Below, one piece after another: positions 1,065 to 41,474 of a DNA stretch of 41,610 bases. The first letter of the stretch is position 1; the number at the start of each line of letters is the position of its first letter. The translations under genes were made by a program, and so were the position numbers. Origin of the DNA: Sphingomonas sp. (GTDB lineage: Bacteria; Pseudomonadota; Alphaproteobacteria; Sphingomonadales; Sphingomonadaceae); the NCBI GenBank assembly GCA_013817375.1, contig JACDCV010000005.1, positions 1 through 41,610 of the forward strand, read 5' to 3'. The notes under the pieces were generated by a model. The model saw only the letters and a program-made list of their open reading frames with translations, was not told where the DNA came from and searched no databases.

Positions 1065-1150
1065 TGTTCCCGCGCGTCTCCCTGATCATCCTCGCCTGCA
1101 TCCTGTTCGTCGGGCTGCTCGAAAATCCAACTCAATTCGGAGTGTTCTGA
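1064..1150 (+). CDS. 28-aa single-TM peptide MFPRVSLIILACILFVGLLENPTQFGVF
   Basis: ATG at 1064 overlaps upstream TGA; TGA at 1148-1150 overlaps next ATG; hydrophobic core. Confidence 0.45.
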   Translation: MFPRVSLIILACILFVGLLENPTQFGVF

Positions 1151-2181
1151 TGGACTCGTTCACCAGCATCGGCGAAGCCGCAGCGAAGGTCGTCGACAAG
1201 TGGGCATGGTGGCAGAACGCCCTCCGAGGCGAGTTCGGGCCGATCCACAGCGAGCCGCAGCAGGGTTATTACCGCGTTCGCGGCCGCGATGGGCAATGGG
1301 ATGCGGTTGCTATCTGGCTCGACGATGGCGGCTCCTGGCTCGCCTACCGCAACGGGCAGGATGTCCGCGACGTCGAGAGCCTTTGGACTTATGCCTGCCG
1401 TCACCCGATCGAGCCTGCCGCCTACGACGCGGCGATGGCCGGCAAAGGCTTCGACGACGAGCCCCCGGCGCCGATTGGGCATAATGCTGCGCCGGGCGAC
1501 GACCCGTTCGAAGCTTTGCGCATCGAATATCTGGGCGAAAAGGAACTCGCCGAGGAATTCTTGCGCTCGCCGATCAAGACACAAGCCGACGCGGACAAGT
1601 CAGCCATATGGAGCCGCCGCCTCGCCGACATTGCGAAGAAGGCTACCGATCACCACAAGGTCGAAAAGCAGCCGTCGCTAGACGAGGGCCGGCGCGTTGA
1701 TGAACGCTGGCGCGAGTTGAAGGAAGAACCGAAGGCGCTCTCGACTAAGTTGAAGCGCCATCAGGACGAATGGCTGAACGAACAGGATCGGCTAGAGCGC
1801 GAGCGCCAGCGCAAGGCGCGCGAGGAAGCCGATCGTATCCGTCAGGCGGCTGAAGATGCCGAGCGCGAGGCGCAAACCGCCGTGCTGGTCGACGATCGGG
1901 AAGCAGAGCCCCGCAAGGCGGAAGCCGAGAAGTTGGCGAGGCAAGCTCATGAAGCCGAGCGCGCCGCCGAAGCGCGCAACGTATCCGCCGGTCGCACCGG
2001 CGCGCGCACGTCGCTGCGCACTTTCAAGTCTGCCGAGATCATCGACTTCGATGCTCTTTTCGCTTCGCTAAAGGACAACGCGGAAGTCCGCGACCTCGTG
2101 AAATCGCTTGCCGACAAGGCGGCGAAGACCGGCTTTCCGCTGCCAGGCACGAAGGTCTTGGAAGAGCGGAGGGCCGTCTGA
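1150..2181 (+). CDS. phage hypothetical protein with central coiled-coil/charged region and 'PIGHNAAPG' motif
   Basis: Long ORF, ATGA coupling to neighbours. Confidence 0.75.
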   Translation: MDSFTSIGEAAAKVVDKWAWWQNALRGEFGPIHSEPQQGYYRVRGRDGQWDAVAIWLDDGGSWLAYRNGQDVRDVESLWTYACRHPIEPAAYDAAMAGKGFDDEPPAPIGHNAAPGDDPFEALRIEYLGEKELAEEFLRSPIKTQADADKSAIWSRRLADIAKKATDHHKVEKQPSLDEGRRVDERWRELKEEPKALSTKLKRHQDEWLNEQDRLERERQRKAREEADRIRQAAEDAEREAQTAVLVDDREAEPRKAEAEKLARQAHEAERAAEARNVSAGRTGARTSLRTFKSAEIIDFDALFASLKDNAEVRDLVKSLADKAAKTGFPLPGTKVLEERRAV

Positions 2182-2504
2182 TGAACGCCGAGGAACTCTA
2201 CAAGCGCAACGAGGAGACCTTTGCGCGGGCGTTCGCGGCGCAGAAGATGGGCCTCGTCGACGATCCGTGGGGACAGAAGCTGCCGGACGATCTCTGGCAG
2301 CAGTGCATCCCTCAGGCGCAGCGCGCGCTCTCCTTCAAGGTGACGAGCACAAGCCATGGCTACAACCATGACACGGTGCAGGGCACCTGCCCGATCGACG
2401 CCACCGTGAAGGAAGTCGAGGATCGCTTCTACCACTGGTATTTTGGCGGTCGAGGCGCCTGGGTCAAAGACGGCCGTTTTGGCTGCACCATTCACAACGA
2501 TTAG
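2181..2504 (+). CDS. hypothetical protein
   Basis: ORF coupled to upstream gene. Confidence 0.65.
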   Translation: MNAEELYKRNEETFARAFAAQKMGLVDDPWGQKLPDDLWQQCIPQAQRALSFKVTSTSHGYNHDTVQGTCPIDATVKEVEDRFYHWYFGGRGAWVKDGRFGCTIHND

Positions 2505-2516
2505 GAGCGCAGTCAA

Positions 2517-3422
2517 ATGAACGCCATCACCAAGACTGAGAAGCCGTCGCTCATCGCCATGATGGCGGCGCAGCGCAACATGGACCCGGAGCAGTTCGCC
2601 AAGACGGTGCGCGCCACGGTCATGCCGGCCAATCACACGAATGAACAGTTCGCCGCGCTGATGCTGGTCGCCAGCAAATACGACCTCGATCCAATCTTGA
2701 AGGAAATCTACGCCTTCCCGGCCAAAGGTGGCGGCATCGTGCCGATCGTCTCCATCGACGGCTGGATCAATCTCGTCAATTCGCACCCGCAAAGCGACGG
2801 GTTTGAGTTTGACTTCGAGCATGACGACAAGGGCGCGCTCGTCTCCTGCACCTGCCGGATGTTCCGAAAGGATCGGAGCCGGCCAGTCGCCGTCACCGAA
2901 TATCTGGCTGAGTGCGTCCGCGCCACCGATCCATGGAAGATGAAGCACCGGATGCTTCGCCATAAGGCGATGATCCAGGCCGCGCGCTTGGCCTTCGGTT
3001 TCTCCGGCGTCTATGACGACGACGAAGGCGCGAAAATCGCCGAGATGAAGGACGTGACGCCGGCCGCCGAGCGCCCGCAGCCGCCGCGCCCGCCCGCGCC
3101 AGCGAGCGCCAGCGCCGCGCCAGCGCCTACCATCAACCACGCAGAGATCGTCGACGCCCAGACCGGCGAGATCATCGACGAGATGGAGATCGTCACCGAA
3201 ACCGGCGAGGCGACCGACACGCTGGTCGACTCCGATGCATTCGACGCCAATCTGTTTTTCGAAGAACTGGAAATTTCTCTCGGGGCGGAGACGACCGCCG
3301 AGGGCGTTGAGGAGCGCTGGAACGAATTCGACCCCCTCGCCACCCTTGAAGGCGACGAGACGAACCAGTCGATCGCGCTCGCCATCAAGAAGCGCCGGCT
3401 CAAGACCATCGGAGGCAAGTGA
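2517..3422 (+). CDS. bet: RecT/Bet-family single-strand annealing recombinase with extra acidic C-terminal region
   Basis: Recognisable family features: ...FAALMLVASKYDLDPILKEIYAFPAKGGGIVPIVSIDGWINLVN...WKMKHRMLRHKAMIQAARLAFGFSGVYDDDE. Confidence 0.92.
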   Translation: MNAITKTEKPSLIAMMAAQRNMDPEQFAKTVRATVMPANHTNEQFAALMLVASKYDLDPILKEIYAFPAKGGGIVPIVSIDGWINLVNSHPQSDGFEFDFEHDDKGALVSCTCRMFRKDRSRPVAVTEYLAECVRATDPWKMKHRMLRHKAMIQAARLAFGFSGVYDDDEGAKIAEMKDVTPAAERPQPPRPPAPASASAAPAPTINHAEIVDAQTGEIIDEMEIVTETGEATDTLVDSDAFDANLFFEELEISLGAETTAEGVEERWNEFDPLATLEGDETNQSIALAIKKRRLKTIGGK

Positions 3423-4000
3423 AAGTGATGGCTGAGTGTTCCGTCGATGGATGCGCCCGTCAACCGCATGGCCATGGGTTTTGTCTCAAGCACTATAAGC
3501 GGTGGCGCAATCATGGCGACCCGCTTGCCGGGCGCACCCCGGTCGGAGAGCCGCAGCGATATTTTCAAGAGGTCGTTCTTCCCTATGAAGGGAATGACTG
3601 CCTTACGTGGCCATATTCCCGAACCTCTTATGGCTACGGAACTGTCTATCAAGACGGGGAGATGAAGTACGTTCACAATCTGATTTGTGAAGCCGAGAGC
3701 GGTCCCCGCCCTACTCCGTCCCATGAAGGTGCTCACGGGTGCGGCCAAGGGCACAACGGCTGCGTTGCTAAACGGCATATCCGATGGGCGACATCGGCCG
3801 AGAACAAAGCCGACATGGTGATTCATGGAACGGACAACCGCGGCGAGCGGTGCGGGACATCTAAACTTACCACGGATCAGGTCGTAGAAATACGGAGATC
3901 AACCACACCAAACGCGGATCTGGCTAAGAAATTCGGCGTTCGAACAGATGCCGTGCGCCGCGCGCGAAAGGGTCAAACCTGGGGGCATATCGATGTCTAA
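3419..4000 (+). CDS. HNH homing-type endonuclease with C-terminal HTH-like tail
   Basis: Cys/His-rich N-terminus (CSVDGCARQPHGHGFCLKHYKRW), VHNLICE...H..C..GHNGCVAKRHIRWATSAENKADM core; GTG 3419 or ATG 3428 start. Confidence 0.85.
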   Translation: MKVMAECSVDGCARQPHGHGFCLKHYKRWRNHGDPLAGRTPVGEPQRYFQEVVLPYEGNDCLTWPYSRTSYGYGTVYQDGEMKYVHNLICEAESGPRPTPSHEGAHGCGQGHNGCVAKRHIRWATSAENKADMVIHGTDNRGERCGTSKLTTDQVVEIRRSTTPNADLAKKFGVRTDAVRRARKGQTWGHIDV

Positions 4001-4883
4001 GACAGAGAGTCCCAGCTTCAAGATGACGGTCGAGAATGGAAGGCTCGTTCCATCGACCGCCTACGATCAAGAGCGTCTTTTCACATGGAGGAACGGCACG
4101 AACGTCAATGTCCGCTTCACCGAGGACAAGGACCGCGTGATGGTCCGCAAGTGGTGGGCAGTTCTCAACCGCGCCGTCAAGGAATGTGCGACGCCATGGA
4201 AAACGGCCAGCGAGGCGTCCGAGGCGATCAAGCTCGCGCTCGGCATCGTACATCTGACGAAGACCGTCGGCGGCCAGTTCATGCAGTATCCGAAGAGCCT
4301 GACGGAACTGACGGACCCAGAACTCGACGATGCCGTCGTTCAGATGCTCGGCGTGGTCCAGGGTGTGACCGGAGTTGACCCGGAAGACTGGAAAAAGGAA
4401 ATCGCCGACATCGGCGAAGACGAAACAACCGAACCCGCATCCGCTCTCTCCTCCAGCGATGATGCGGCAGGCAGCGGCGAGGCATCCCCTGGCTCGACCG
4501 CTGCCGACCCTACACAGATCGAGCCGCCTGCCGGTGAAACAATCCGGGCGACGCAGGATGGCGCGATGGAATCCGAGCCGGCGACCGTGCAGTCGACGGT
4601 AGGCTCGGATTCCAACCAATCAGAGGCCGCAGAGCGCGACGAGGCTGCCTGGCTGAAAGGCTTTGCCCGATCCATCGTCGCGGCGATCGCGGTCGACGAC
4701 AAATTCGTGCTGGCGACGTCAAAGGGTTCGTTCGTCGACGGCCTGTCCAGAGACGCAAGCGAGCGCGCCCGCGCCATCACGAAATATGCGGTCCAGGTTG
4801 CTCGCAACGAAATGGAGCGCGCCGATGCGCTCGACATCATCGCCGGCAAGGCCGGGTGCGAAATCGGGGAGTTGGCGGTATGA
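3993..4883 (+). CDS. phage hypothetical protein; N-terminus weakly DUF1367-like, acidic low-complexity linker
   Basis: Start MSKTESPSFKMTVENGRLVPSTAYDQERLF...; overlaps HNH stop by 8 bp. Confidence 0.6.
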   Translation: MSKTESPSFKMTVENGRLVPSTAYDQERLFTWRNGTNVNVRFTEDKDRVMVRKWWAVLNRAVKECATPWKTASEASEAIKLALGIVHLTKTVGGQFMQYPKSLTELTDPELDDAVVQMLGVVQGVTGVDPEDWKKEIADIGEDETTEPASALSSSDDAAGSGEASPGSTAADPTQIEPPAGETIRATQDGAMESEPATVQSTVGSDSNQSEAAERDEAAWLKGFARSIVAAIAVDDKFVLATSKGSFVDGLSRDASERARAITKYAVQVARNEMERADALDIIAGKAGCEIGELAV

Positions 4884-5915: not shown

Positions 5916-6082
5916 GGGCGCTCGCACTCCCTGCCCGTCAGGTGACGGCTCTTTGCAAGGGAGCCGCGAAAGCCGGCTATGTCGTGGAAGTCAAGATAGG
6001 GGACGTGGTTATGCGCCTTGTTCCCGCATCCCATGCACAGGAAACTGCGAAAGTTGACGACAACGAGGATTTCAGGCTTTGA
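5912..6082 (+). CDS. 56-aa hypothetical protein MRALALPARQVTALCKGAAKAGYVVEVKIGDVVMRLV...
   Basis: ATGA coupling with 5418..5915; stop overlaps integrase start. Confidence 0.6.
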   Translation: MRALALPARQVTALCKGAAKAGYVVEVKIGDVVMRLVPASHAQETAKVDDNEDFRL

Positions 6083-7155
6083 CCGAGGATATGCCCCGCC
6101 CGCGCCCGCCTTACATCCGCCAGGAAAGAACCCGCCACGGGCGCCTGATCTGGACATTCCGGCGCGGCGCCGAGTATGTCCGCCTGCCCGATGTCTTCGG
6201 CAGCACCGAGTTCTGGACCTCCTACAATGCCGCTCTGGAGGGCAAGAAAGCCCCGAAACCGACGCTAGGCAGGAGTGGGACGCTCGAATGGCTGGTCCGC
6301 AGATACAAGCAAAGCGGCCACTTCGCGTCCCTCGCCCCGACGAGCAAAATCAACCGCGACTATATCATGCAGGCGGTTTGCAAGGAAGCCGGACACGTCC
6401 CTTTCGTGAAGGTGACGAGGCTGAAAATTCAGGAGGCGATGGACCGCAGGGCGGCAACTCCCCACGCCGCAAATAACTTCCTCGTCGCCATGTCCGTGCT
6501 GTTCAAATGGGCCGTGGACAACGAGATGGTCGAGAAAAACCCGTGCGAAGGCGTGTCGCCGCGCAAGGACAAGATCAAGGGTTTCCATACATGGTCGATC
6601 GAGGAGGTCGAGCAATTCCGGGCAAAGCATCCGGTCGGATCGAAGCCGAGGCTGGCGCTCGATCTGTTGCTGTTTACCGGCCTACGCCGTGGCGATGTCA
6701 GGATCGTCGGCAAACAGCATGTGCGTGAGGGCGTCATCGCGCTCCGCACCGGCAAGACGAATGCTCAGGTTCATCTGCCGATATTCCCCAAATTGCAGGC
6801 GTCTCTCGACAATACGGCAACGGGGAATTTGGTGTTCCTGACCAATGCGAAGGGCGAACCGTTCGCGAACGCCCAGGCATTCGGGATGTGGTTCATTCGC
6901 CAGTGCAACGCGGCAGGGCTGCCGGCAGGATGCACAGCGCACGGATTGAGAAAAGCTGGCGCGACCATCGCAGCCAACAATGGCGCGACGGCTCATGAGC
7001 TGATGGCGATGTTCGGATGGTCGAGGATTTCGATGGCCGAAGTCTACACCAAACAGGCGGACAGGGCGCGGCTCGCAAGGGGTGCGTCGGAACGCATTGC
7101 GAACAATTCATCGTCGCACCTTCAAATAGGTGCGGCGGCGGCAGCTAAAAAATAA
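6079..7155 (+). CDS. int: tyrosine recombinase / phage integrase
   Basis: Catalytic-type motifs TGLRRGDV, GKTNAQVHLPI, HGLRKAGAT, MFGWSRISMAEVYT. Confidence 0.93.
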   Translation: MTEDMPRPRPPYIRQERTRHGRLIWTFRRGAEYVRLPDVFGSTEFWTSYNAALEGKKAPKPTLGRSGTLEWLVRRYKQSGHFASLAPTSKINRDYIMQAVCKEAGHVPFVKVTRLKIQEAMDRRAATPHAANNFLVAMSVLFKWAVDNEMVEKNPCEGVSPRKDKIKGFHTWSIEEVEQFRAKHPVGSKPRLALDLLLFTGLRRGDVRIVGKQHVREGVIALRTGKTNAQVHLPIFPKLQASLDNTATGNLVFLTNAKGEPFANAQAFGMWFIRQCNAAGLPAGCTAHGLRKAGATIAANNGATAHELMAMFGWSRISMAEVYTKQADRARLARGASERIANNSSSHLQIGAAAAAKK

Positions 7156-29620: not shown

Positions 29621-29972
29621 CCGCTCCAAACCTTGCGCGTGATCCTGGGCCGCCAACGCCTATCTCCGACGCCGCCGCCCGAAGCTGCGCGATCTTGCCC
29701 GCGACCATCCCGGCCGGGTTGATCTCGAATTCATGGTAAAGGCTGACCCAAACCAGTGCGGCCGGCGCATCATGCGGCGCGAGCCACGAGGCCGTGCGAA
29801 CGAACTGGTTCCACAACACAAGCTGCCGCCCCGACAGCCTCACCGGCGGATCGATCGGTCCTGAATTGCCATTTCCACCCGGAGCCGGATCGCTCTTGAT
29901 CGGCCGCTTGCCGGGATTTCCCGTCACCAATTTGAGAAACGGCGGCTTGGGCTTGCGCCCTCTGGTTGCCAT
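29574..29972 (-). CDS. terS: terminase small subunit, P27-family
   Basis: MATRGRKPKPPFLKLVTGNPGKRPIKSDPAP. Confidence 0.9.
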   Translation of the reverse strand: MATRGRKPKPPFLKLVTGNPGKRPIKSDPAPGGNGNSGPIDPPVRLSGRQLVLWNQFVRTASWLAPHDAPAALVWVSLYHEFEINPAGMVAGKIAQLRAAASEIGVGGPGSRARFGADGGNKEEDSAASYFG

Positions 29973-30032
29973 CGGATTTCCTTGAAACTTAAATTCGCGA
30001 TATTGTGTGCGAAAGGTCGCGCCGGTCTAGTT

Positions 30033-30063
30033 GGGGCCATGGCTGCAGACTTTGGATGGCCCC
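30033..30063. repeat. 8-bp perfect inverted repeat GGGGCCAT-N15-ATGGCCCC between HNH and terS (candidate cos-region element)
   Basis: Arms 30033-30040 and 30056-30063 in the 97-bp HNH-terS gap. Confidence 0.6.
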
Positions 30064-30069
30064 CCGCCC

Positions 30070-30399
30070 TTATGTCGGCCAGCCGTCTGTACCGATGATG
30101 ATCAGCGGCCTGGCCTTGCCTGTGCGCTCCTCTGACTGCTTCGCGCTGTTGTGACAGTTGGCGCATAGTATGATGAGGTTGTCAGCGTTCCAGAACAGTT
30201 CGTCCTTGCCCTTGTGCGGAGTCTTGTGATCGCAGTGTGCTTCGCCCTTGCCTGCTACTATCCGCTTGCACCTTTGGCAGGTGAACATGTCGCGGACCAG
30301 GATGGACCAGCGCAGCTTCTGCCATCGTGCTGTCTTGTAGTGTCGCCTATACGACAGCGCATCTGGCGACCTATCGTCGCGCCGCGCAATATTGTTCAT
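30070..30399 (-). CDS. HNH endonuclease adjacent to terminase (packaging-associated type)
   Basis: FTCQRCKRIVAGKGEAHCDHKTPHKGKDELFWNADNLIILCANCHNSAKQ. Confidence 0.9.
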   Translation of the reverse strand: MNNIARRDDRSPDALSYRRHYKTARWQKLRWSILVRDMFTCQRCKRIVAGKGEAHCDHKTPHKGKDELFWNADNLIILCANCHNSAKQSEERTGKARPLIIIGTDGWPT

Positions 30400-30421
30400 T
30401 GCGTCTGCCTGTCGGATTGTG

Positions 30422-30443
30422 GCTAAATGCCATAGTATTTAGC
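30422..30443. promoter_or_regulatory. perfect 7-bp dyad GCTAAAT-N8-ATTTAGC in the divergent intergenic region (candidate operator)
   Basis: Arms 30422-30428 and 30437-30443, between divergent genes 30399(-) and 30459(+). Confidence 0.6.
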
Positions 30444-30458
30444 GGAAAGTGGAAATGC

Positions 30459-30968
30459 ATGGCAAACCAGACTGAACCGCTCACGCTTGAATGGACGAAG
30501 GCCCGACTAGAGCAGGACATTGCCCAAGCACATGAGCGCTACGACCGTCGGCTGCAACGCCTGGAGGACATGAAGCGCCCACTACCGGAGCCTAGCGATT
30601 TCCCTTGTCCTAATCCTCGCTACGAACAAGCAGTGATCATGCGCGAACAGGGTAATACGTTCGCTCAGATTGGCGAACGTCTGGGCGTAACCGCAGGCCG
30701 CGCAGGTCAAATGGTGAAGAAAGGGATTCGCCTCCGCGAGAAGGCTAAGGAGCCGTCCGGAAAGCTGTCCGCAAGAGCTAGAAACATCCTTGCCAATTTT
30801 CTTGGGATTGGATGGCCCCACAAGGATTCCAGGCTCGCAGAGATAACCCCTGAACGAGTTTCAGATATCAGCTATTTCGAACTCAAGGATTCGTCGAATT
30901 GCGGGAAGCACTCGCTCAACGAAATTCGCATGTGGCTTCGCGGCCACGGCCTCGACCTCAAGAAATAG
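30459..30968 (+). CDS. sigma-R4-like HTH protein with C-terminal RNA polymerase alpha-CTD-like domain; putative phage transcription regulator
   Basis: HTH QAVIMREQGNTFAQIGERLGVTAGRAGQMVKKG; C-term LSARARNIL...LAEITPERVSDISYFELKDSSNCGKHSLNEIRMWLRGHGLDLK matches the alpha-CTD pattern. Confidence 0.75.
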   Translation: MANQTEPLTLEWTKARLEQDIAQAHERYDRRLQRLEDMKRPLPEPSDFPCPNPRYEQAVIMREQGNTFAQIGERLGVTAGRAGQMVKKGIRLREKAKEPSGKLSARARNILANFLGIGWPHKDSRLAEITPERVSDISYFELKDSSNCGKHSLNEIRMWLRGHGLDLKK

Positions 30969-31028
30969 CGTACCGCTTGTAGGCTTCTGCCTCTGTGCTG
31001 CGCTGATCTCTTCGTATACGATCCGGCA

Positions 31029-31205
31029 TCACTTCGCCTTTACAGCCTGTCTGATTGTCGTCTCTGGATTTGCCTCGGCATAAGCCTTGGCGGGCAATGA
31101 TGCTCGAAGATGGTTCGCCCCAATCCAGAAGTCAGGCGAACATGGTTGCGACCCGGATTGCTGGCTTACCGGGACAATGCAGACAGCCTCACGGCGCTGC
31201 GGCAT
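31029..31205 (-). CDS. small hypothetical protein
   Basis: ORF end ...SPDFWIGANHLRASLPAKAYAEANPETTIRQAVKAK; start uncertain. Confidence 0.3.
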   Translation of the reverse strand: MPQRREAVCIVPVSQQSGSQPCSPDFWIGANHLRASLPAKAYAEANPETTIRQAVKAK

Positions 31206-31320
31206 CTTCGATCTGTGAAACAATTTCGGGGATTGCGAATGACTGGCATGTCACGCGCGCGAAGTCAATCCACGAAAGGATCGTTTCGGCATCGTTACGA
31301 TTAACGGGCCTTGGCCGCAT
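31189..31320 (-). CDS. 43-aa candidate protein MRPRPVNRNDAETILSWIDFARVTCQSFAIPEIVSQIEDAAAP
   Basis: ATG at 31320 overlaps the 3' end of 31301..31861; natural-looking composition; not in ORF track. Confidence 0.35.
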   Translation of the reverse strand: MRPRPVNRNDAETILSWIDFARVTCQSFAIPEIVSQIEDAAAP

Positions 31321-31861
31321 AGCCCCAAAGCTCGGACAGCACGTCCAAATACATTCTCAAACAGTCAGTCATCGTGTCTCGCTGGCGGCGCGTCTGACAT
31401 AGGTCGTGGATCGAATAGCCCTCTCCGCAGATGTAGAGGACGAGGCGATAGGCATATTCGCCGTGGGCGTCCTTCAATGCCTTCTGCGCGTCCTTCAGAT
31501 CGCGGCCGGCCTGCATCTGCCGCGCGCTGATCGGATCAGGCGACATGCCGCCGTCCACCACAACACGGCTGTAATCCATCGCTCCGGCTCCAGCGCCGCC
31601 CATCGCCTCGAATAACTGGCGAATGCGGTTAGCCGCAGCCGCCTGGGGCGCGGTGATCGCCCCTTTGGCCGCAAGCATGGTGATAGCGCTTTCACGGATG
31701 TTGATGTCCGCGATGATTTTGCGGCTGTTTCCGAGCTTCCCTTCGGCGTGGTCGCGCGTGAATTTGGGATCGTCCATCTCCATCTTGACGGTCTCGGCCC
31801 GGATGTTGCCGCCGGGGTGCATTGCCGGATAGATCGGATCGCGCTTCCGCTTGGCCATCAA
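31301..31861 (-). CDS. phage hypothetical regulator-like protein (possibly DUF6456-like)
   Basis: C-term EYAYRLVLYICGEGYSIHDLCQTRRQRDTMTDCLRMYLDVLSELWGY. Confidence 0.65.
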   Translation of the reverse strand: MMAKRKRDPIYPAMHPGGNIRAETVKMEMDDPKFTRDHAEGKLGNSRKIIADINIRESAITMLAAKGAITAPQAAAANRIRQLFEAMGGAGAGAMDYSRVVVDGGMSPDPISARQMQAGRDLKDAQKALKDAHGEYAYRLVLYICGEGYSIHDLCQTRRQRDTMTDCLRMYLDVLSELWGYAAKAR

Positions 31862-32220
31862 CCCGCCTTTATAAGTTTGTGCTTGGGCTTCGGCTGGTCA
31901 AGATCACTCACGGGGCAAAGGCGATATTCGGCCTTGTTTCCGCGTCCTGTGGCTCCCTTGGGGATTGTCCAGCCATAGGCGCCAAGCTTCTGGCGCAGGA
32001 TGTGGACCTGGACCGACAATGCCGCTCTGGCGTGTACCGGGCCGCCGTCTCTCACCCCTCGATAGATATTCTCGATCAAAGCTTCGGCTGACACGCTTCT
32101 CGGATATGCCGCGGCGAGGCCGTTGACGATCGTTCTCGGCACTGTCGGCAGTTGAACATCGGCCAGCAGTGAGAGTTTGGCGCGGGTCTGCATGTGGCCG
32201 CCGCAGCAGGGGCAGTTCAT
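31858..32220 (-). CDS. zinc-ribbon + OmpR/PhoB-type winged-helix DNA-binding protein without receiver domain
   Basis: MNCPCCGGHM N-term; VHILRQKLGAYGWTI...AEYRL C-term wing pattern. Confidence 0.6.
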   Translation of the reverse strand: MNCPCCGGHMQTRAKLSLLADVQLPTVPRTIVNGLAAAYPRSVSAEALIENIYRGVRDGGPVHARAALSVQVHILRQKLGAYGWTIPKGATGRGNKAEYRLCPVSDLDQPKPKHKLIKAG

Positions 32221-32591
32221 GCGCGGATCCTCCGCGTCTCGACCGCGACGACCTTGCCATTGCAGAAAACGAGCTTCGGCCTGTCACACGCTCCGAAGAC
32301 GTTGCGGCGTTCCTCCTGCGCTTCGCGGTCCTTGCCGGCGCGCCATGCCCTGAAACCGTGATCGTCAGGCTCCGGATCGATCTTGATTGCCCGGATCGGC
32401 TTTTCGGCCATCTTGATCCGCATGGCTTCCGAGAACGCCGTCATCATCGTCGGGAACATCATCCGGCAACGGTTCTTGTCGGAGAGGATCGTCCAGCGTT
32501 CGGTGTCGTCCCACCGCCACATGGCACAGTAGTGTGTGCCGAAGTTGATGGTATCGACGAAGGGCTCGCCGTTGGATTTCGTCGCCATCAA
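32217..32591 (-). CDS. hypothetical protein
   Basis: ORF with 4-bp overlaps on both sides in the operon. Confidence 0.65.
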   Translation of the reverse strand: MMATKSNGEPFVDTINFGTHYCAMWRWDDTERWTILSDKNRCRMMFPTMMTAFSEAMRIKMAEKPIRAIKIDPEPDDHGFRAWRAGKDREAQEERRNVFGACDRPKLVFCNGKVVAVETRRIRA

Positions 32592-34027
32592 AGCGCCCCT
32601 TCGAACAGTTCGGGCTGCGCGGCCGCGCGCATGGACACGTAGCGCGTGTATTCCGCCTCGAACCGCAGGCGCCGGCGGATCGTAGGATTCCCGAATCTAA
32701 CTTTCAGAGCGCCTATCTCGGCCTGGTCCTCGGTCCAGTTGCCGCGCGTGAATCGGGCGTCGACATCCCGCTCCTGCCGCTCGTCATCGGCCGTCGCCAG
32801 TTGCGCCTGCCAGTATTTCCAAGGGCGGTAGAGGTAGAACATGCCGTCGTAATCCTCTCGCGCCTGCTCGCCGCCGTAGAGGTCGCTGTCGATCGGTCGC
32901 GGGTTCTTGCGTTTGGCGCCAGCCGAGCTGCGCTGGTTGAGGCTCAGCCAGGCCGCGCCATGCTCGCCTGCTAATTCCTTGCAGACGCCGTTGATTTCGC
33001 CGGCAATGCGCCCTTCGTGGTCGCGGTCGCTGCGGGGCTTCACCTTGCGGACGTGATCCAGGGTGATCAGCGGGTGCTTGTCGAAGCGGCCACGGTAGGT
33101 CTTGATGAACCTGCGGACATAGCCGGCGATCTGGACCGTGCCGTCATCGCGGGCGCTGCACTTGCGAATTTCCAGCGGAAGGTCGGACATCGCGAACAGC
33201 GTCTCGTAATATCGCTCCTGTTCGTGATCCATCAGCGTCATGGCCCGGATCCGCGTGTTCTCGATCCCGGTCCGCTGCGAAACGATCTGGTTTATGCACT
33301 GGTCCGGCGACTGGTCGTAGGAGAGCATCAGGACGGGATGGCCGTTCATCACGGCATGGTCGATGATCTGCATCAGAAGGCTCGTCTTGCCCTCTCCCGA
33401 GCCCGACAGGAGGCCGTATAGGTTTCCGACCTCCATGTGACCGTTCATGACTTCGCGCAGCTGCTCGAGCGGGAACGCGACAGTCGGCATGTCGGCCTTC
33501 GCCTTGTTCCGCTCCATCATGCGGGCGACGGTGGCCTTGGCCGTGCCCGGCCCTTCATGTTTCGGGCTGTCGGCCTGGATGGTGGCCAGCTTTTCGCTGT
33601 ATTCGCCCGCGATCTGGTTGCCCGACGTTTCGATCGGCGCGTCGTATGCCTGGGCGGCCATGCCCTCGCCGATGCCAATCAGTTGCCGGCGTTGGTAAAG
33701 GTCGAAGATCGATTGGCCATAGTCGTTGGCATTGATGACCGTGACGGTTCCCGCCGCGAGCTTGGCGAGGTATTGGGCGACGTTCATATCGCCGACTTTT
33801 TCGTTGGCCGGCAGAAACGGTTTGATGATGACCGGATCGACGGACTTGCCCGCGGCGATGTGCCGGCCGATTTCCTCGAATATCCTGCGGTGCAGACCCT
33901 CGTGGAAATGCTCTGGACGAAGGAACGCGCTGACACGGGCGAAGGCGTCGTTGTTGACGAGCAGGGCGCCGAGTAAGGCTTGCTCTGCCTCACAGTTGTT
34001 CGGGGCTTCGCGCTGGATGTCGGTCAT
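32588..34027 (-). CDS. replicative DnaB-like helicase
   Basis: NNCEAEQALLGALLVNNDAFARVSAFLRPEHFHEGLHRRIFEEI; Walker A LLSGSGEGKTSLLMQ. Confidence 0.92.
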   Translation of the reverse strand: MTDIQREAPNNCEAEQALLGALLVNNDAFARVSAFLRPEHFHEGLHRRIFEEIGRHIAAGKSVDPVIIKPFLPANEKVGDMNVAQYLAKLAAGTVTVINANDYGQSIFDLYQRRQLIGIGEGMAAQAYDAPIETSGNQIAGEYSEKLATIQADSPKHEGPGTAKATVARMMERNKAKADMPTVAFPLEQLREVMNGHMEVGNLYGLLSGSGEGKTSLLMQIIDHAVMNGHPVLMLSYDQSPDQCINQIVSQRTGIENTRIRAMTLMDHEQERYYETLFAMSDLPLEIRKCSARDDGTVQIAGYVRRFIKTYRGRFDKHPLITLDHVRKVKPRSDRDHEGRIAGEINGVCKELAGEHGAAWLSLNQRSSAGAKRKNPRPIDSDLYGGEQAREDYDGMFYLYRPWKYWQAQLATADDERQERDVDARFTRGNWTEDQAEIGALKVRFGNPTIRRRLRFEAEYTRYVSMRAAAQPELFEGAL

Positions 34028-34860
34028 GCGGCGGGCCTCGATTGAGCGTCAAGCCGGAACGTCACGGCGATATGCCGGGCAAGCGGCTCCGGGATTTTCG
34101 CGATCATGGCGGAAGCGGCTTTGCGCTGCGGCGATTTGGAACCGTGCTTGCGGCAGGTTGAGTTCGGGTCGCTGAACCAATCGCCGCCGATCTTTGTCCC
34201 GCTCGCATGGTCAACGGCGTGCTTCCCGGCCAGTCTCGTGAAGTCCTGCCCTCGCTTCGTTGGGTCGCTCCAATTCATCCCTGGAGCCTTGACGCCGGTT
34301 TCCGCGACACTCGCCGTCTGGAAACTGCCGCCTGAGCCATCGAACCGAAAGCCCGGAACCTTCTGTGCCTTGAATGCGACCGGCATCAGCGCCGGCACAT
34401 CGCCCCACAAATGGAACGAGCCGAAATTCCAGCGCGACCTACCTACCCAAGGGATGGCACCGCGCACGTTCTCCACAATCAACGGTACATGCCGGCCGGC
34501 GGCGATCGAGGCTTCCTTCTGGATGCGAAAGCAGGCGTTGAACAGACGATTGAGCCGCTCCAGCTCCGCGCCCGACGTGTCAGCCCGGATGGCCGCGGCC
34601 TTCGCCTTTGCCTTCTTCCAAGGCATCGCCATGTAGGAATATTCCTGGCATGGCGGCGAAGCGACGATCAACGCGGCATCCTTGAATTGCGAGCCGTGCA
34701 GCGTGAGGACATCCGCGACAACGAGTTCGCCGGGATAGCGGTTCTCGCCGTATTCGTGCCGCTCGATGTCGTAGCCGATGACGTGGTAGCCCTCGGCCAG
34801 AAGTCCTTCAGTCCATCCGCCAAGACCGCAGAACAGATCGACCGCCAAGGGCTTGCTCAT
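34024..34860 (-). CDS. C5-cytosine DNA methyltransferase
   Basis: Start MSKPLAVDLFCGLGGWTEGLLAEGYHV; SPPCQEYSYMAMPW (motif IV); VENVRG (motif VI). Confidence 0.9.
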   Translation of the reverse strand: MSKPLAVDLFCGLGGWTEGLLAEGYHVIGYDIERHEYGENRYPGELVVADVLTLHGSQFKDAALIVASPPCQEYSYMAMPWKKAKAKAAAIRADTSGAELERLNRLFNACFRIQKEASIAAGRHVPLIVENVRGAIPWVGRSRWNFGSFHLWGDVPALMPVAFKAQKVPGFRFDGSGGSFQTASVAETGVKAPGMNWSDPTKRGQDFTRLAGKHAVDHASGTKIGGDWFSDPNSTCRKHGSKSPQRKAASAMIAKIPEPLARHIAVTFRLDAQSRPAA

Positions 34861-35429
34861 GCCGCCCTCATCTGAAGTGCTCGGAACGCCTGACAGCCGG
34901 CTCCGGCAAATGCGATTCCGACGGCATCGGCCATGTCGTCGTTGGTGACCGTGATTTTCAGTTGCTGGCATTTGTCGCGAACCGCGCGCTTCCAGTCCTT
35001 GCGCGCCCAACCGGGATGAGTGCCGAAGCCGAGAAACGCCTTGCGCCAAGTCACCGGCGCTATCATCTGGAACGGAATGCCGTAGGCACCGACAATGGCC
35101 GCGCATGCACCTACCATTTGATTGCTCGAAATCACCGCATTGAGGCCGGAGCCGGATGCTTCCTCGACCTGCGCCTCACCCATGAACTTGACCTTGCGTG
35201 TCACCCGGCCGGGCTGGGTGCGGATTGGCATTTCGATGGCGATGAAGTCGGGCCGATCAGCCTTGATCAGGAGGACCAGCGCGCGACCGAGAGCGGCGGC
35301 CTTGTCCTCATAGGTCTCGCCAGTGGCTTTCAGCACGCCCGCCTTGATGGATGACAGGCTTGTGCCGGGCGCTGCATCATAGAGCGCCCAGCCTGTGTTT
35401 TGAGCCGCATCGAGGCCGAGGATGATCAA
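34857..35429 (-). CDS. RuvC-like (RNase H fold) endonuclease
   Basis: TTG start 35429; IILGLDAAQNTGWALYD, FIAIEMP, DDMADAVGIAFAG. Confidence 0.75.
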   Translation of the reverse strand: MIILGLDAAQNTGWALYDAAPGTSLSSIKAGVLKATGETYEDKAAALGRALVLLIKADRPDFIAIEMPIRTQPGRVTRKVKFMGEAQVEEASGSGLNAVISSNQMVGACAAIVGAYGIPFQMIAPVTWRKAFLGFGTHPGWARKDWKRAVRDKCQQLKITVTNDDMADAVGIAFAGAGCQAFRALQMRAA

Positions 35430-35701
35430 GCCGCCTCCTCCGCGAAGAGTTCGGCCTGCCGCGCGTCCTTGCGGTCGAGCATGCGAAGGACTGTTTCGCC
35501 CTTGTGCTTCTTGTCCCAGACGAACCAGCCGTTGAGCATGGGCGGCGCGCCCTGCCCGGTGAAATCGATCTTCCAGCGCATCAGGTATGTCCTCGCAAAT
35601 AAGGCGGGTGACGTACTTATCTTCAGAGTTATGCCGGCGCACGACAGGCGCGGGATTGCGCGGCTGCGGAAGCGGCGGAGGAAGCGGGAAAGACGGGTCA
35701 T
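35426..35701 (-). CDS. hypothetical protein
   Basis: MTRLSRFLRR start coupled to upstream stop; alternative start 35581 (MRWKIDFTGQ). Confidence 0.5.
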   Translation of the reverse strand: MTRLSRFLRRFRSRAIPRLSCAGITLKISTSPALFARTYLMRWKIDFTGQGAPPMLNGWFVWDKKHKGETVLRMLDRKDARQAELFAEEAA

Positions 35702-36081
35702 GCGACGGCCTTTCCGGCGGCGACATCCCAAGCGTCAGCGGACGCGCCGGGCATGAAATAACCGCGGCCCCATGCTGTCTCGACGTTGATGGAAAGAGGT
35801 TCGAGCTTCGGCCGAATCTTGCAGACGAACACGTCGACGATCTTGATTTCAGGCTGCTCTCCATCCGACCGGAACGCATAGAGCAGATCGAGGACGGCCT
35901 GCTTCGTGACGACGTTCGGCGACCGCGCCCGCAAGAGTTGAGCGACCTTTTCCTCGGTAGCCGTCAGCCCAGCGAAGTACGGCGCGCCAACTGCATTGAG
36001 AGCCGCTTCAAGGTTCTCGACTCGGAACTCCAGATCGTCGACCTGGCGCTGTAACTCGCGGGCGCGCGCCTCCCAATTCAT
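35698..36081 (-). CDS. coiled-coil + OmpR-type winged-helix DNA-binding protein
   Basis: LTATEEKVAQLLRARSPNVVTKQAVLDLLY...IKIVDVFVCKIRPKLEPLSINVETAWGRGYFM. Confidence 0.75.
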   Translation of the reverse strand: MNWEARARELQRQVDDLEFRVENLEAALNAVGAPYFAGLTATEEKVAQLLRARSPNVVTKQAVLDLLYAFRSDGEQPEIKIVDVFVCKIRPKLEPLSINVETAWGRGYFMPGASADAWDVAAGKAVA

Positions 36082-37727
36082 GCCGCTTTCCTTCCAGAAA
36101 GCGCGCTGCAAGCGCGATAGAGCATGACCGCGCCGGCCGTATGCCTGCCTTGGTTGGTTTCAGCGCCAAAGCGAACGGCTGCCTGCTCGATGTCGGGCCG
36201 CGCCATAAGGGCGGTGACGAGATCGTCCCGGTTGACATCGCTGTATTGCGGCTGGGTTATGAGGATTCCGATCGCGCGCAGGATCATGCTGCTGATCGGC
36301 TTGCACTTTCCTTCCACGGCGATGCCTATTATGTCGCGCAACACGTCGGCGCCGTGCGCGCGGTGCATCGAGTAGAGTTCCTTGACCGCCGTGATCTGGC
36401 CGATCTTCGCGCCCCGCTTGCCTATCGGGTGGCGTGGGATCGTGCCGCCAACGGCCGCAACCAGATCGTTGATCGCTACCGCTTCGGGCTCTCCGGCGGC
36501 AACCTCACCATGGAATACCTGGTAGGGCGACATTGCGACCCGGTCGCGGTTATGGGCAACGAAGGATGACGCGCGCGCTTCCAGGCTACCGGCGTCGACC
36601 AGCATGACCGGGATTGTCTCGACGTCAGGATGCGAGGCCGCGCCGATGGCGGTGTGCTGGCCGTCGATGACGAAGTAGCCATCGCCATGCTCGACGCAGA
36701 CCGGCGGCTTGAACTTCGTCCAGTCGAACTTCTCGACGATGCGCCGGATAAGGTTGAGCGACTTCGCCGAGAGGTCGCGCTGATACTTCGTCTCGACGAT
36801 CAGCTTCGCCGGATCCACGTCGATGAAACGCGGCCGCGCAACCCGGATGGCGCTCGGGGAAAGTCCGTTGAGAGGAATGGGCAGGATTGGCCTATATTCT
36901 GACCCGCCCGCTTCCGCCGGCGGCGGCGCGACATCGCGCATGATGTTTGCGGTTTCGACGTCGATGCTCGTCCGGCCGTGCTTGATGAAGGCGATGCACT
37001 CGCGCGGTGCTTCCCAGCACAGGGCGCAGGTGGCGCAGCAGGCGGTGGCGTCCGTCTGCGAAGGGCAGACAATCTCATTACTCGGCCCGCGCTTTCCGCG
37101 TGGCACCCTGTCCAGCACGACCGCGCCGTCGGCCATTGCGACATCGGTTGACCACCGGATGCGGAACCTCTCGGGATGCGCGTCCTTGACCGCTTGGATG
37201 GCGTCGGCGATCTCGTCGCCTTTGCGATGCGTGTATCCAAAGCAGGCGACGTTCGGATGCTCGTCGAGCACGTCTTTCCAGAAGGCAACGTATTCAGCGG
37301 ACGGGAAGTCACCCAGGACATGCAGCCGGATCAACAGGCCATCGTGATCGTCGAGCAGTTCCGCGATTTCAAAGCCGAGCCTGTCGAAGAACACGTCGCT
37401 GTCGCCGATGCGGTGGCGCCGCGCCATCTGCATACCGTTGCCGTAGCAGTAGGCCCGCGCGCTGCATTCGGTTGGACAGGTCGCCCGTTCCTCCAGCGAC
37501 AGCATGAAAATGCCGTAGCCTTTGAACCGGCCCTTCTCGACCGTCTTTCCGATCTTCCGGTTGTTGTCGCCAGAGATCAGGAGGCGCGCTGGCTCGGCTT
37601 CCGTCACCGTGACCACGGTCGACGGAAACAGCGTCCGGTTCCCGACCATGGCCGGGTGATCTGCCCGCAGGGACATGACAGCCTGCGGGTTTAGATCGGG
37701 CTTCTCGGTGAACCGGCGAGCGCTCAT
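36078..37727 (-). CDS. fusion: N-terminal gp88-like Cys-rich domain + C-terminal ParB/Srx-like nuclease domain
   Basis: MLSLEERATCPTECSARAYCYGNGMQ...RLHVLGDFPSAEYVAFWKDVL...CPSQTDATACCATCALCW; then IDVDPAKLIVETKYQRDLS...YFVIDGQHTAIGA. Confidence 0.8.
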   Translation of the reverse strand: MSARRFTEKPDLNPQAVMSLRADHPAMVGNRTLFPSTVVTVTEAEPARLLISGDNNRKIGKTVEKGRFKGYGIFMLSLEERATCPTECSARAYCYGNGMQMARRHRIGDSDVFFDRLGFEIAELLDDHDGLLIRLHVLGDFPSAEYVAFWKDVLDEHPNVACFGYTHRKGDEIADAIQAVKDAHPERFRIRWSTDVAMADGAVVLDRVPRGKRGPSNEIVCPSQTDATACCATCALCWEAPRECIAFIKHGRTSIDVETANIMRDVAPPPAEAGGSEYRPILPIPLNGLSPSAIRVARPRFIDVDPAKLIVETKYQRDLSAKSLNLIRRIVEKFDWTKFKPPVCVEHGDGYFVIDGQHTAIGAASHPDVETIPVMLVDAGSLEARASSFVAHNRDRVAMSPYQVFHGEVAAGEPEAVAINDLVAAVGGTIPRHPIGKRGAKIGQITAVKELYSMHRAHGADVLRDIIGIAVEGKCKPISSMILRAIGILITQPQYSDVNRDDLVTALMARPDIEQAAVRFGAETNQGRHTAGAVMLYRACSALSGRKAA

Positions 37728-37730
37728 GGC

Positions 37731-38312
37731 TTATTCGGCCGCGTCGGCGAATGGATCGGCGCCCTCGTCCTCGTCTGATCCCTTAATGAGTTCGTCGACC
37801 GAAGCTTCCTCGGCCTTCTTCTTGATGCCGGCGAACAATGCGCCCTGCCCGTCATGCCAGCCGCGAGCGAACTCCTGCCCTTCGTGGGATGCTTCGTTGT
37901 AGGGATTGGCCAGCGTGTCTCCGCGCAGGCCGGCTTCCTCGCCGTCGCGGTAGGCGCGTTCATCGAGCGGTGCGCGGTCGGCAAGGAGGTCGAGTTGCGT
38001 CCCGACAGGCATGCCGGCGAACCGCATAGCCTGCGACGTGGCTTCCATCTGCGCCTTGATTGTGGCCTGACCTTCCGGGGTCTGCGCCTGCTCGTAGGTC
38101 TTGATCTGGTCGAGGCCGAATTCGCCGAGGTCTTCCTTGATCGCTTTGCCGACGAGTTTCAGCTTGGCATCGGCCGCTTTCTTGACGGCGAGCGCGTCGA
38201 GGTAGTGCCGGCGATTGATGAAGAACAGAACCTTGCGGCCCTTCTCGGCCAGGTCGCCGCTGTTGTGGCCGATCGTATCGTTGTCGGGCTGCTTCGCTGC
38301 TTTCGCCATCAC
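37731..38312 (-). CDS. phage hypothetical with 'IGHNSG' motif and RMF-like C-terminal segment
   Basis: NDTIGHNSG...; AYRDGEEAGLRGDTLANPYNEASHEGQEFARGWHDGQ. Confidence 0.65.
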   Translation of the reverse strand: MMAKAAKQPDNDTIGHNSGDLAEKGRKVLFFINRRHYLDALAVKKAADAKLKLVGKAIKEDLGEFGLDQIKTYEQAQTPEGQATIKAQMEATSQAMRFAGMPVGTQLDLLADRAPLDERAYRDGEEAGLRGDTLANPYNEASHEGQEFARGWHDGQGALFAGIKKKAEEASVDELIKGSDEDEGADPFADAAE

Positions 38313-40472: not shown

Positions 40473-40738
40473 GCGACGGCCTTCTCGGTGGGGGTGTTGG
40501 TGGGAGCGGTGGGTTCGGGACGATTGAATTCATCAGGCCAGACCGCGGCCGCCGGCCAGTTCGCCGAGAACCAATGCAGCGCGGCATTGAACCGCCCGAG
40601 CGTGATGTCTGACCCTGTGCGGAGCGCCGCCAGCTTCTTGCTGTCTCCGAAAAGCCTGTGGCTGACCGTGACATCCTCCAGAGAGGTTGCCTGTTTGTAA
40701 GCGTCGGCGACGGCGAGGAGGTGTGCGATTTCAATCAT
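40469..40738 (-). CDS. early lytic-side phage protein divergent from repressor
   Basis: MIEIAHLLAVADAYKQATSLEDVTVSHRLFGDSKKLAALRTGSDITLGRFNAALHWFSANWP; adjacent to operators. Confidence 0.75.
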   Translation of the reverse strand: MIEIAHLLAVADAYKQATSLEDVTVSHRLFGDSKKLAALRTGSDITLGRFNAALHWFSANWPAAAVWPDEFNRPEPTAPTNTPTEKAVA

Positions 40739-40747
40739 GTTCAACAA

Positions 40748-40821
40748 TTCGGTTATTTTACCGAATATGTCAACGGTTATCTTACCGAATGCGAAGCGAA
40801 GGCTTTTCGGTCAAAATACCG
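40748..40821. promoter_or_regulatory. three operators with core CGGT-N6-ACCG (cores 40751-40764, 40775-40788, 40808-40821)
   Basis: ATTCGGT-TATTTT-ACCGAAT; CGGT-TATCTT-ACCG; TCGGT-CAAAAT-ACCGA between divergent genes; TTGACA on the - strand at 40774-40769. Confidence 0.85.
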
Positions 40822-40823
40822 AT

Positions 40824-41474
40824 ATGATTTTGAAGGATATTCTCACGCGCATAGACCGTCGGCTGGTGGCTAAAAACCTGGCTGAATCGGCGGCGGCGAC
40901 AAAGGCCGGCCTCAGCAACTCCGCGATCCGCAACATGCGGCGCGCCGTCAAGGCAGGGAAAAACCAAGGTGCGTCGATTAAGACCATCGAGGCGCTGGCT
41001 CCTGTCCTTGGGACATCATCGGCATGGCTGTTGGAAGAGCGCGGCCCCGAAGAGGGCGACGGCAGCATCGGCGCGCCTATCGTCGAGGCGAAGCTGATAT
41101 CGTGGATCAGCGCCGGCCAAATTGCTCAGAACCCAACGGTTCAGATTGCCGACCTCGAATATGCGCCGACCGTCTATGCCCCGGATTTAGACCCGGAAGG
41201 CGACTGGATAGCGCTTCGGGTCGACGGAGATTCGATGAACCGCATATCCCCACACGACTCAATCATCTTCGTAAACCGCAAGGACCGCCGGCTCGTTCCG
41301 AACGCCTGCTATGTGATCGGCGATGGGGACGGCGGCGCGACCTATAAGCGCTATCGCCCGCCGAACAGTTGGGCGCCGGTTTCAACAAACAAGGCGCATC
41401 AGCCTTTCATTCTCCCGGCCGGCGTCGATCCCGACATCATCGGCCGCGTGAAAAAGACTATCCTTTCGATGTAG
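40824..41474 (+). CDS. CI/LexA-like phage repressor (HTH + S24 peptidase-type domain)
   Basis: HTH TKAGLSNSAIRNMRRA; LRVDGDSMNRISPHDSIIFVNR; ATYKRY; possible Ala-Gly cleavage site ISAGQI. Confidence 0.9.
   Translation: MILKDILTRIDRRLVAKNLAESAAATKAGLSNSAIRNMRRAVKAGKNQGASIKTIEALAPVLGTSSAWLLEERGPEEGDGSIGAPIVEAKLISWISAGQIAQNPTVQIADLEYAPTVYAPDLDPEGDWIALRVDGDSMNRISPHDSIIFVNRKDRRLVPNACYVIGDGDGGATYKRYRPPNSWAPVSTNKAHQPFILPAGVDPDIIGRVKKTILSM

Follow-up and report, generated by a model that had tools for sequence, protein, structure and literature searches.

P0001, a 169-residue protein encoded by a temperate siphovirus, joins a helix-turn-helix (HTH) resembling sigma region 4 to a domain resembling the C-terminal domain of the RNA polymerase alpha subunit (alpha-CTD). 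The fusion is not unique to this phage, and P0001 is a diverged member of a wider set of viral and plasmid proteins. We consider it an even call that P0001 is a local, self-regulating, probably dimeric DNA-binding regulator that probably also acts on the divergent promoter.

Genome context and domain anatomy

The window, by which we mean the whole stretch of DNA analysed, is a 41.6-kb contig (C113) within a fragmented 2.23-Mb genome assembly, probably alphaproteobacterial to judge from its relatives and RpoA neighbours, and is a temperate siphovirus (Table 1). Its late block, on the − strand, holds the HNH, TerS, TerL, portal, protease, capsid, tape measure, tail fibre, and endolysin genes; the TerL match has E = 8e-135, and the portal gene was also identified in the late operon. 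P0001 sits between the early and late − strand blocks; it diverges from HNH across a 59-bp gap and converges on P0006 across one of 332 bp. The sequence-only reading was exact in describing a 169-residue + strand open reading frame flanked by − strand genes, and right only in part in placing it exactly at the start of the late operon: the gene adjoins that operon across the 59-bp gap to the first late gene, but it is transcribed away from the operon and does not begin it. The P0001 frame is the best-scoring of the six in its stretch, weakly so (codon score 0.05, GC3 0.60), and its homologues support a real gene. This GC3 is the second-lowest among the 30 window genes, as would be seen for a recently acquired gene.

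No Rfam match was found across 29900-31400, and the idea that 30983-31058 duplicates the 5′ region of HNH was dropped, the likeness having scored under the best shuffle. Elsewhere on the − strand, 37731-38312 has a weak match to ribosome modulation factor (PF04957, E = 6e-4, residues 114–156), and 31858-32220 encodes a Cys-rich N-terminus followed by what appears by eye to be an OmpR-type winged helix, with no NCBIfam match.

Table 1. Positions in the window of P0001, its parts, and neighbouring features
Feature	Position	Strand	Basis or remark
Recombination genes	1150-4883		
Integrase	6079-7155		
HNH endonuclease, opens divergent late operon (next TerS, TerL, portal)	30070-30399	−	PHROG HNH E = 7e-23; Pfam HNH
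Candidate operator, perfect dyad GCTAAAT-N8-ATTTAGC	30422-30443	.	59-bp P0001/HNH gap
P0001, HTH + alpha-CTD-like regulator, 169 aa	30459-30968	+	translation, homologues, AlphaFold model
N-terminal long helix, residues about 8–40, possible coiled-coil dimeriser	30480-30578	+	predicted helix 10–39
Sigma-region-4-like HTH, residues 53–97	30615-30749	+	PF04545, TIGR02937, Foldseek
Alpha-CTD-like helix-hairpin-helix domain, residues 103–168	30765-30962	+	hhalign 96.5%, Foldseek
P0006, last early-operon gene, DUF6456-like, phrog_21451	31301-31861	−	phrog_21451 E = 1.3e-48
DnaB gene	32588-34027	−	early block
Methyltransferase gene	34024-35106	−	early block
RuvC-like gene	34857-35879	−	early block
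ParB-like gene: GP88-domain protein joined to ParB-like nuclease region	36078-37727	−	early block
CI-like repressor	40737-41474		

An AlphaFold model of P0001 made with eight sequences (pLDDT 78.6, pTM 0.44) places a long helix at the N-terminus, followed by an HTH of three helices and a C-terminal domain of five. The N-terminal helix bears a hydrophobic seam, read from the sequence (L10-L17-I21-A24-Y28-L32-L35-M38), and is a possible dimeriser. In a Foldseek search of the PDB, ranks 1, 2, and 6 are alpha subunits or alpha-CTDs, and the top 50 include several sigma region 4 structures; the alpha-CTD match probability is 0.97–0.99, and all E-values exceed 0.3 and so are not significant alone. 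These poor E-values probably reflect two small joined domains of uncertain relative orientation. The model agrees with both of the predicted folds, at TM 0.66–0.67 for sigma region 4 and 0.60–0.69 for alpha-CTD, with the caveat that it may lean on remembered alpha-CTD structures.

The sigma-region-4-like HTH that had been proposed for the centre of the protein is borne out by profile and fold alike. PF04545 (Sigma70_r4) matches P0001 with E = 1.9e-4 and 21.3 bits in a single-sequence HMM comparison, just missing the curated cut-off of 24.1, and TIGR02937 matches the HTH with E = 7e-4. Foldseek superposes the HTH on 1rio_H with TM(target) 0.67 (0.8 Å over 48 columns) and on 1ku3 with TM 0.66. 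No match to sigma region 2 was found in P0001, which lacks the combination of regions 2 and 4 with −10/−35 recognition that marks a sigma-70 factor. The canonical −35 contacts of sigma70 are R584 and E585; these positions are A79 and G80 in P0001, so canonical −35 reading is not expected, and the equivalent of Q589 is kept as Q84. Judged by its residues, P0001 does not qualify as a sigma factor and is no obvious sigma appropriator, since R584/E585 and the 261 determinant of alpha-CTD are not kept and region 2 is absent.

For the C-terminal end, where an alpha-CTD pattern had been claimed, the Pfam model RNA_pol_A_CTD (PF03118) gives 12.8 bits (E = 0.098), over residues 140–160 only and short of the cut-off of 23.8, and a viral alpha-CTD profile gives a best domain of 13.7 bits. 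A profile-profile comparison of the family C-terminal domain with RpoA CTDs reaches 90% (best of 200 column shuffles, 21%). With a profile built with distant Sphingobium relatives of P0001, hhalign against RpoA and viral alpha-CTDs reaches 96.5% (14.7% at most among 200 column shuffles); the aligned region starts at LSxRAxNxL and takes in nearly all of the domain to its end. Relative to RpoA, P0001 carries some 12 additional residues behind helix 1 of the CTD. The modelled domain matches 1z3e_B with TM 0.69 (2.3 Å) and 9zum_D, a Caulobacter alpha-CTD on AT-rich DNA, with TM 0.60, and the claimed pattern stands on these results. It is quite improbable that the domain is instead a generic helix-hairpin-helix, DNA-binding or structural, whose likeness to alpha-CTD arose by convergence in NxGKxSLxEI. 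The Pfam match, weak by itself and confined to the second half, would fit such a domain, as would a match of the relative P0005 to HHH_8 (E = 0.07), but the helix-1 motif LSxRAxNxL matches RpoA too, the hhalign likeness is not confined to one half, and the best PDB fold matches are alpha-CTD chains.

In the hhalign alignment, R106 and N109 of P0001 fall at the positions of R265 and N268 of E. coli RpoA, and G149, S152, and E155 at those of G296, S299, and E302. Five of the seven alpha-CTD DNA-contact positions are kept; C269 and K298 are replaced by I110 and H151, and the K298 position, which is V or G in the relatives, counts against DNA binding by this domain. The 261 determinant, which docks alpha-CTD on sigma, is absent from P0001, with K102 at E261. 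In the CAP–alpha-CTD–DNA structure, R265 and N268 contact the DNA backbone and the minor groove (PMC11434276). Because contact residues of the R265/N268 type are kept, minor-groove binding by P0001 is plausible.

Relatives on plasmids and in viruses

With P0001 as the query, no relatives were found in viral contigs, GTDB contigs, or 100 related genomes, and a viral scan with alignment A2 gave nothing. P0001 is not conserved at the early/late junction of related phages: no homologue at E < 0.1 was found in 80 TerL-related contigs, and none in L081, the closest related phage. Order-wide and class-wide profile searches yielded HTH-level or single weak matches only; the contig of one match, L237 (1.3e-6), has a terminase-like ORF. 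HTH proteins of Gordonia phages were rejected as relatives, their likeness being at the HTH level only; matches of a Streptomyces phage and of recB to the CTD alone were put down to chance; and a KorA-type similarity (PF16509, E = 0.02; PDB 5cm3_A, rank 45) was too weak to use.

A tblastn search of 72,556 plasmid records returned one relative, WP_069064044.1 of the Sphingobium plasmid pBSY17_1, which is 30% identical to P0001 over residues 38–165, a span that includes both modules (E = 2e-5). With it as a lead, a further eight loci were found in Sphingobium, Sphingopyxis, and other alphaproteobacteria, and alignment A3 of the family keeps L103, S104, R106, A107, N147, G149, K150, L153, E155, I156, W159, and L160. 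In pBSY17_1 and six of its close relatives, an F-type transfer region ends with the gene, which follows closely downstream of TraH and TraG and points away from a small gene. A phage and a conjugative element thus use one pair of modules, as would suit a protein that regulates genes of mobile elements.

A scan of viral contigs with an alpha-CTD alignment revealed at least 132 contigs with relatives, of which 80 were kept (L154–L233); these encode mostly small proteins (85–320 residues) and not whole RpoA, many without a recognisable HTH. PF03118 matches all 45 diverse viral members examined (44 from the scan and L119). HTH and alpha-CTD occur together in proteins of L181, L200, L198, and L205, the HTH matches being mostly weak, and in L213, L217, L230, and phage record MT835636 (L119) both Sigma70_r4 and RNA_pol_A_CTD score over the Pfam cut-offs. 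No direct pairwise homology between P0001 and the viral HTH + alpha-CTD proteins was detected. The fusion gene adjoins terminase genes in L200 and L205, which are unrelated viral contigs; it lies near recombination genes in L198 and near an uncharacterised nuclease-type gene and a transglycosylase in L181. In BFVD, a protein of Rhodococcus phage Finch is named for an alpha-CTD domain. An alpha-CTD (E = 1e-10) also forms the N-terminus of a 288-residue protein of Ruegeria phage vB_RpoS-V16 (L117:5932-6798), which is a pyrophosphatase in one record version and an HTH-domain protein in the other.

An HTH and an alpha-CTD-like domain are thus found within one small mobile-element protein in P0001, P0002, P0005, and the viral examples. 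No literature on such fusions was found in 5.39 million open-licence PMC papers, a collection that covers few subscription papers, and the architecture is apparently undescribed as a class. A bolder proposal, which we regard as rather unlikely, is that P0001 belongs to a widespread, undescribed class of mobile-element regulators that bring their own alpha-CTD, make UP-element-type contact in trans, and activate phage and plasmid promoters by replacing both upstream promoter-contact modules of RNA polymerase.

The divergent gap and the role of P0001

The dyad in the divergent gap ends 15 bp before the P0001 start codon. The chance of such a dyad in this gap is 2% by one shuffling and 1.7% by a second, figures to be read with the post hoc noticing of the dyads in mind. 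Among the upstream regions of the 30 window genes, only the P0001/HNH gap has a dyad with 7-bp arms within 60 bp, and GCTAAAT-N8-ATTTAGC has no other copy in the 2.23-Mb assembly with up to one mismatch allowed. At seven of seven Sphingobium-type loci, a dyad TGATTTT-N5-AAAATCA lies just over 20 bp before the start (shuffling, 3.2%); the seven upstream regions are near-identical and amount to one observation. The phage and Sphingobium dyad sequences differ, as do the recognition helices, and L129 lacks an upstream dyad. The 59-bp gap yielded no recognisable sigma-70-type promoter or terminator, although host promoters may differ. The dyad arm partly resembles the KorA operator, too weakly for the resemblance to be used. 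The dyad reads as a candidate site for autoregulation by a P0001 dimer, a lead and not proof.

The domain anatomy, the homologues, the dyad, and the divergent arrangement are computed, and the local regulation that we favour would combine them as follows. The N-terminal helix would pair two copies of P0001, the sigma4-like HTH would read both dyad arms in the major groove, and the alpha-CTD-like domain, to judge from its kept contact residues, would grip the adjacent AT-rich minor groove much in the way that alpha-CTD holds an UP element. Bound to the dyad, which lies in the gap separating the P0001 start codon from HNH, the leading gene of the divergent late operon, P0001 would regulate itself and probably also the leftward HNH-terminase promoter. 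The gene probably entered the early/late junction as an accessory cassette.

Alternatively, P0001 could be a moron expressed in lysogeny with host promoters or other mobile elements as its main targets, its adjacency to the late operon being incidental. A + strand gene of low GC3 among − strand genes would suit a moron, as would the absence of a homologue from the 100 related genomes, the occurrence of a homologue on conjugative plasmids and not in phages, and the other accessory-looking genes held by the equivalent interval of L081. The sole perfect or one-mismatch copy of the dyad in the assembly is the local one, however, which argues for local control if the dyad is the site, and we think this alternative unlikely.

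The sequence-only reading had instead suggested a late-gene activator or an RNA polymerase adaptor or appropriator. It finds partial support, in that the two modules are there, that a function in transcription is much the likeliest one, and that the dyad lies between P0001 and the late operon; against the rest of it stand the missing region 2, the residues at the −35 contacts, the missing 261 determinant, and the absence of the gene from L081. It is doubtful that P0001 binds near the late promoter, recruits host RNA polymerase through its sigma4-like and alpha-CTD-like modules, and switches on HNH-TerS-TerL and the structural genes. The position of P0001 at the early/late junction and the terminase-adjoining genes of L200 and L205 would agree with such an activator, and so would a comparison with related phages. 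Among 49 TerL-related contigs with at least 2.8 kb upstream (56 were counted, and seven without real upstream sequence were left out), 21 have a NusG/RfaH-like gene upstream of HNH-TerS that runs in the late-gene direction, and the window phage has none. These genes, which lie just upstream of HNH-TerS in L008, L012, L016, L017, L020, L025, L074, L082, and others, are candidate processive antiterminators of late operons. Yet L081, among the nearest phages by TerL (82% identical to the window TerL), has neither a NusG-like gene nor P0001, and the missing NusG-like gene can therefore be explained without P0001. The divergent orientation, accessory distribution, and low GC3 of P0001 also weigh against late activation, as does the loss of the surfaces for docking on RNA polymerase (261 determinant, sigma −35 contacts).

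P0006 is, moreover, the better-conserved candidate for late regulation. It is more likely than P0001 to be the conserved late regulator because it has a homologue in L081, near the early/late junction (26% identity in the alignment; phmmer E = 0.0026), and because it closes the early operon, where lambdoid phages have Q. Its match to DUF6456 (E = 0.0013) is under the cut-off, its fold prediction is poor (pLDDT 59), and a weak fold match to Q21 (rank 3, E 4.2) is only a lead; P0006 possibly represents a new late-regulator family. The junction interval of L081 also encodes, at 6302-6838 (+), a 178-residue protein that by eye is an apparent N-terminal-nucleophile (proteasome/HslV-like) hydrolase.

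Comparison with known systems

The alpha-CTD is the docking and DNA-binding tail of RNA polymerase. In P0001 and in the viral and plasmid proteins, it serves instead as one module of a small DNA-binding regulator. If such fusions bound UP-type DNA, or competed with the alpha-CTD of the polymerase itself, mobile elements would have in them a distinct way to steer host transcription.

In terms of its two modules, P0001 shares with sigma-70 region 4 (PF04545) the HTH core and the Q589 equivalent, Q84, but has no region 2, carries A79/G80 for R584/E585, and scores below the cut-off. With the RNA polymerase alpha-CTD (PF03118; 1z3e_B, 9zum_D) it shares the predicted fold, the LSxRAxNxL and NxGKxSLxEI motifs, and most DNA-contact residues, whereas it has no alpha-NTD, an insertion of about 12 residues, a K298-to-H change, no 261 determinant, and a Pfam score below the cut-off.

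Among whole proteins, the WP_069064044.1 family has the same order of HTH and then alpha-CTD-like domain, a similar insertion, and an AT-rich dyad just upstream, but differs in its N-terminal domain, its place in an F-type conjugation locus downstream of TraG, and its 30% identity. The viral HTH + alpha-CTD proteins (L181, L200, L205, L213, L217, L230, L119) also have an HTH and then an alpha-CTD, the latter being close to RpoA, over the cut-off, and without the insertion, unlike that of P0001. Q-type late antiterminators and the NusG/RfaH-like proteins of related phages are comparable to P0001 in their genome position at the early/late junction; their folds are unrelated to that of P0001, and they are encoded in the late-gene direction, whereas P0001 is encoded in the opposite one.
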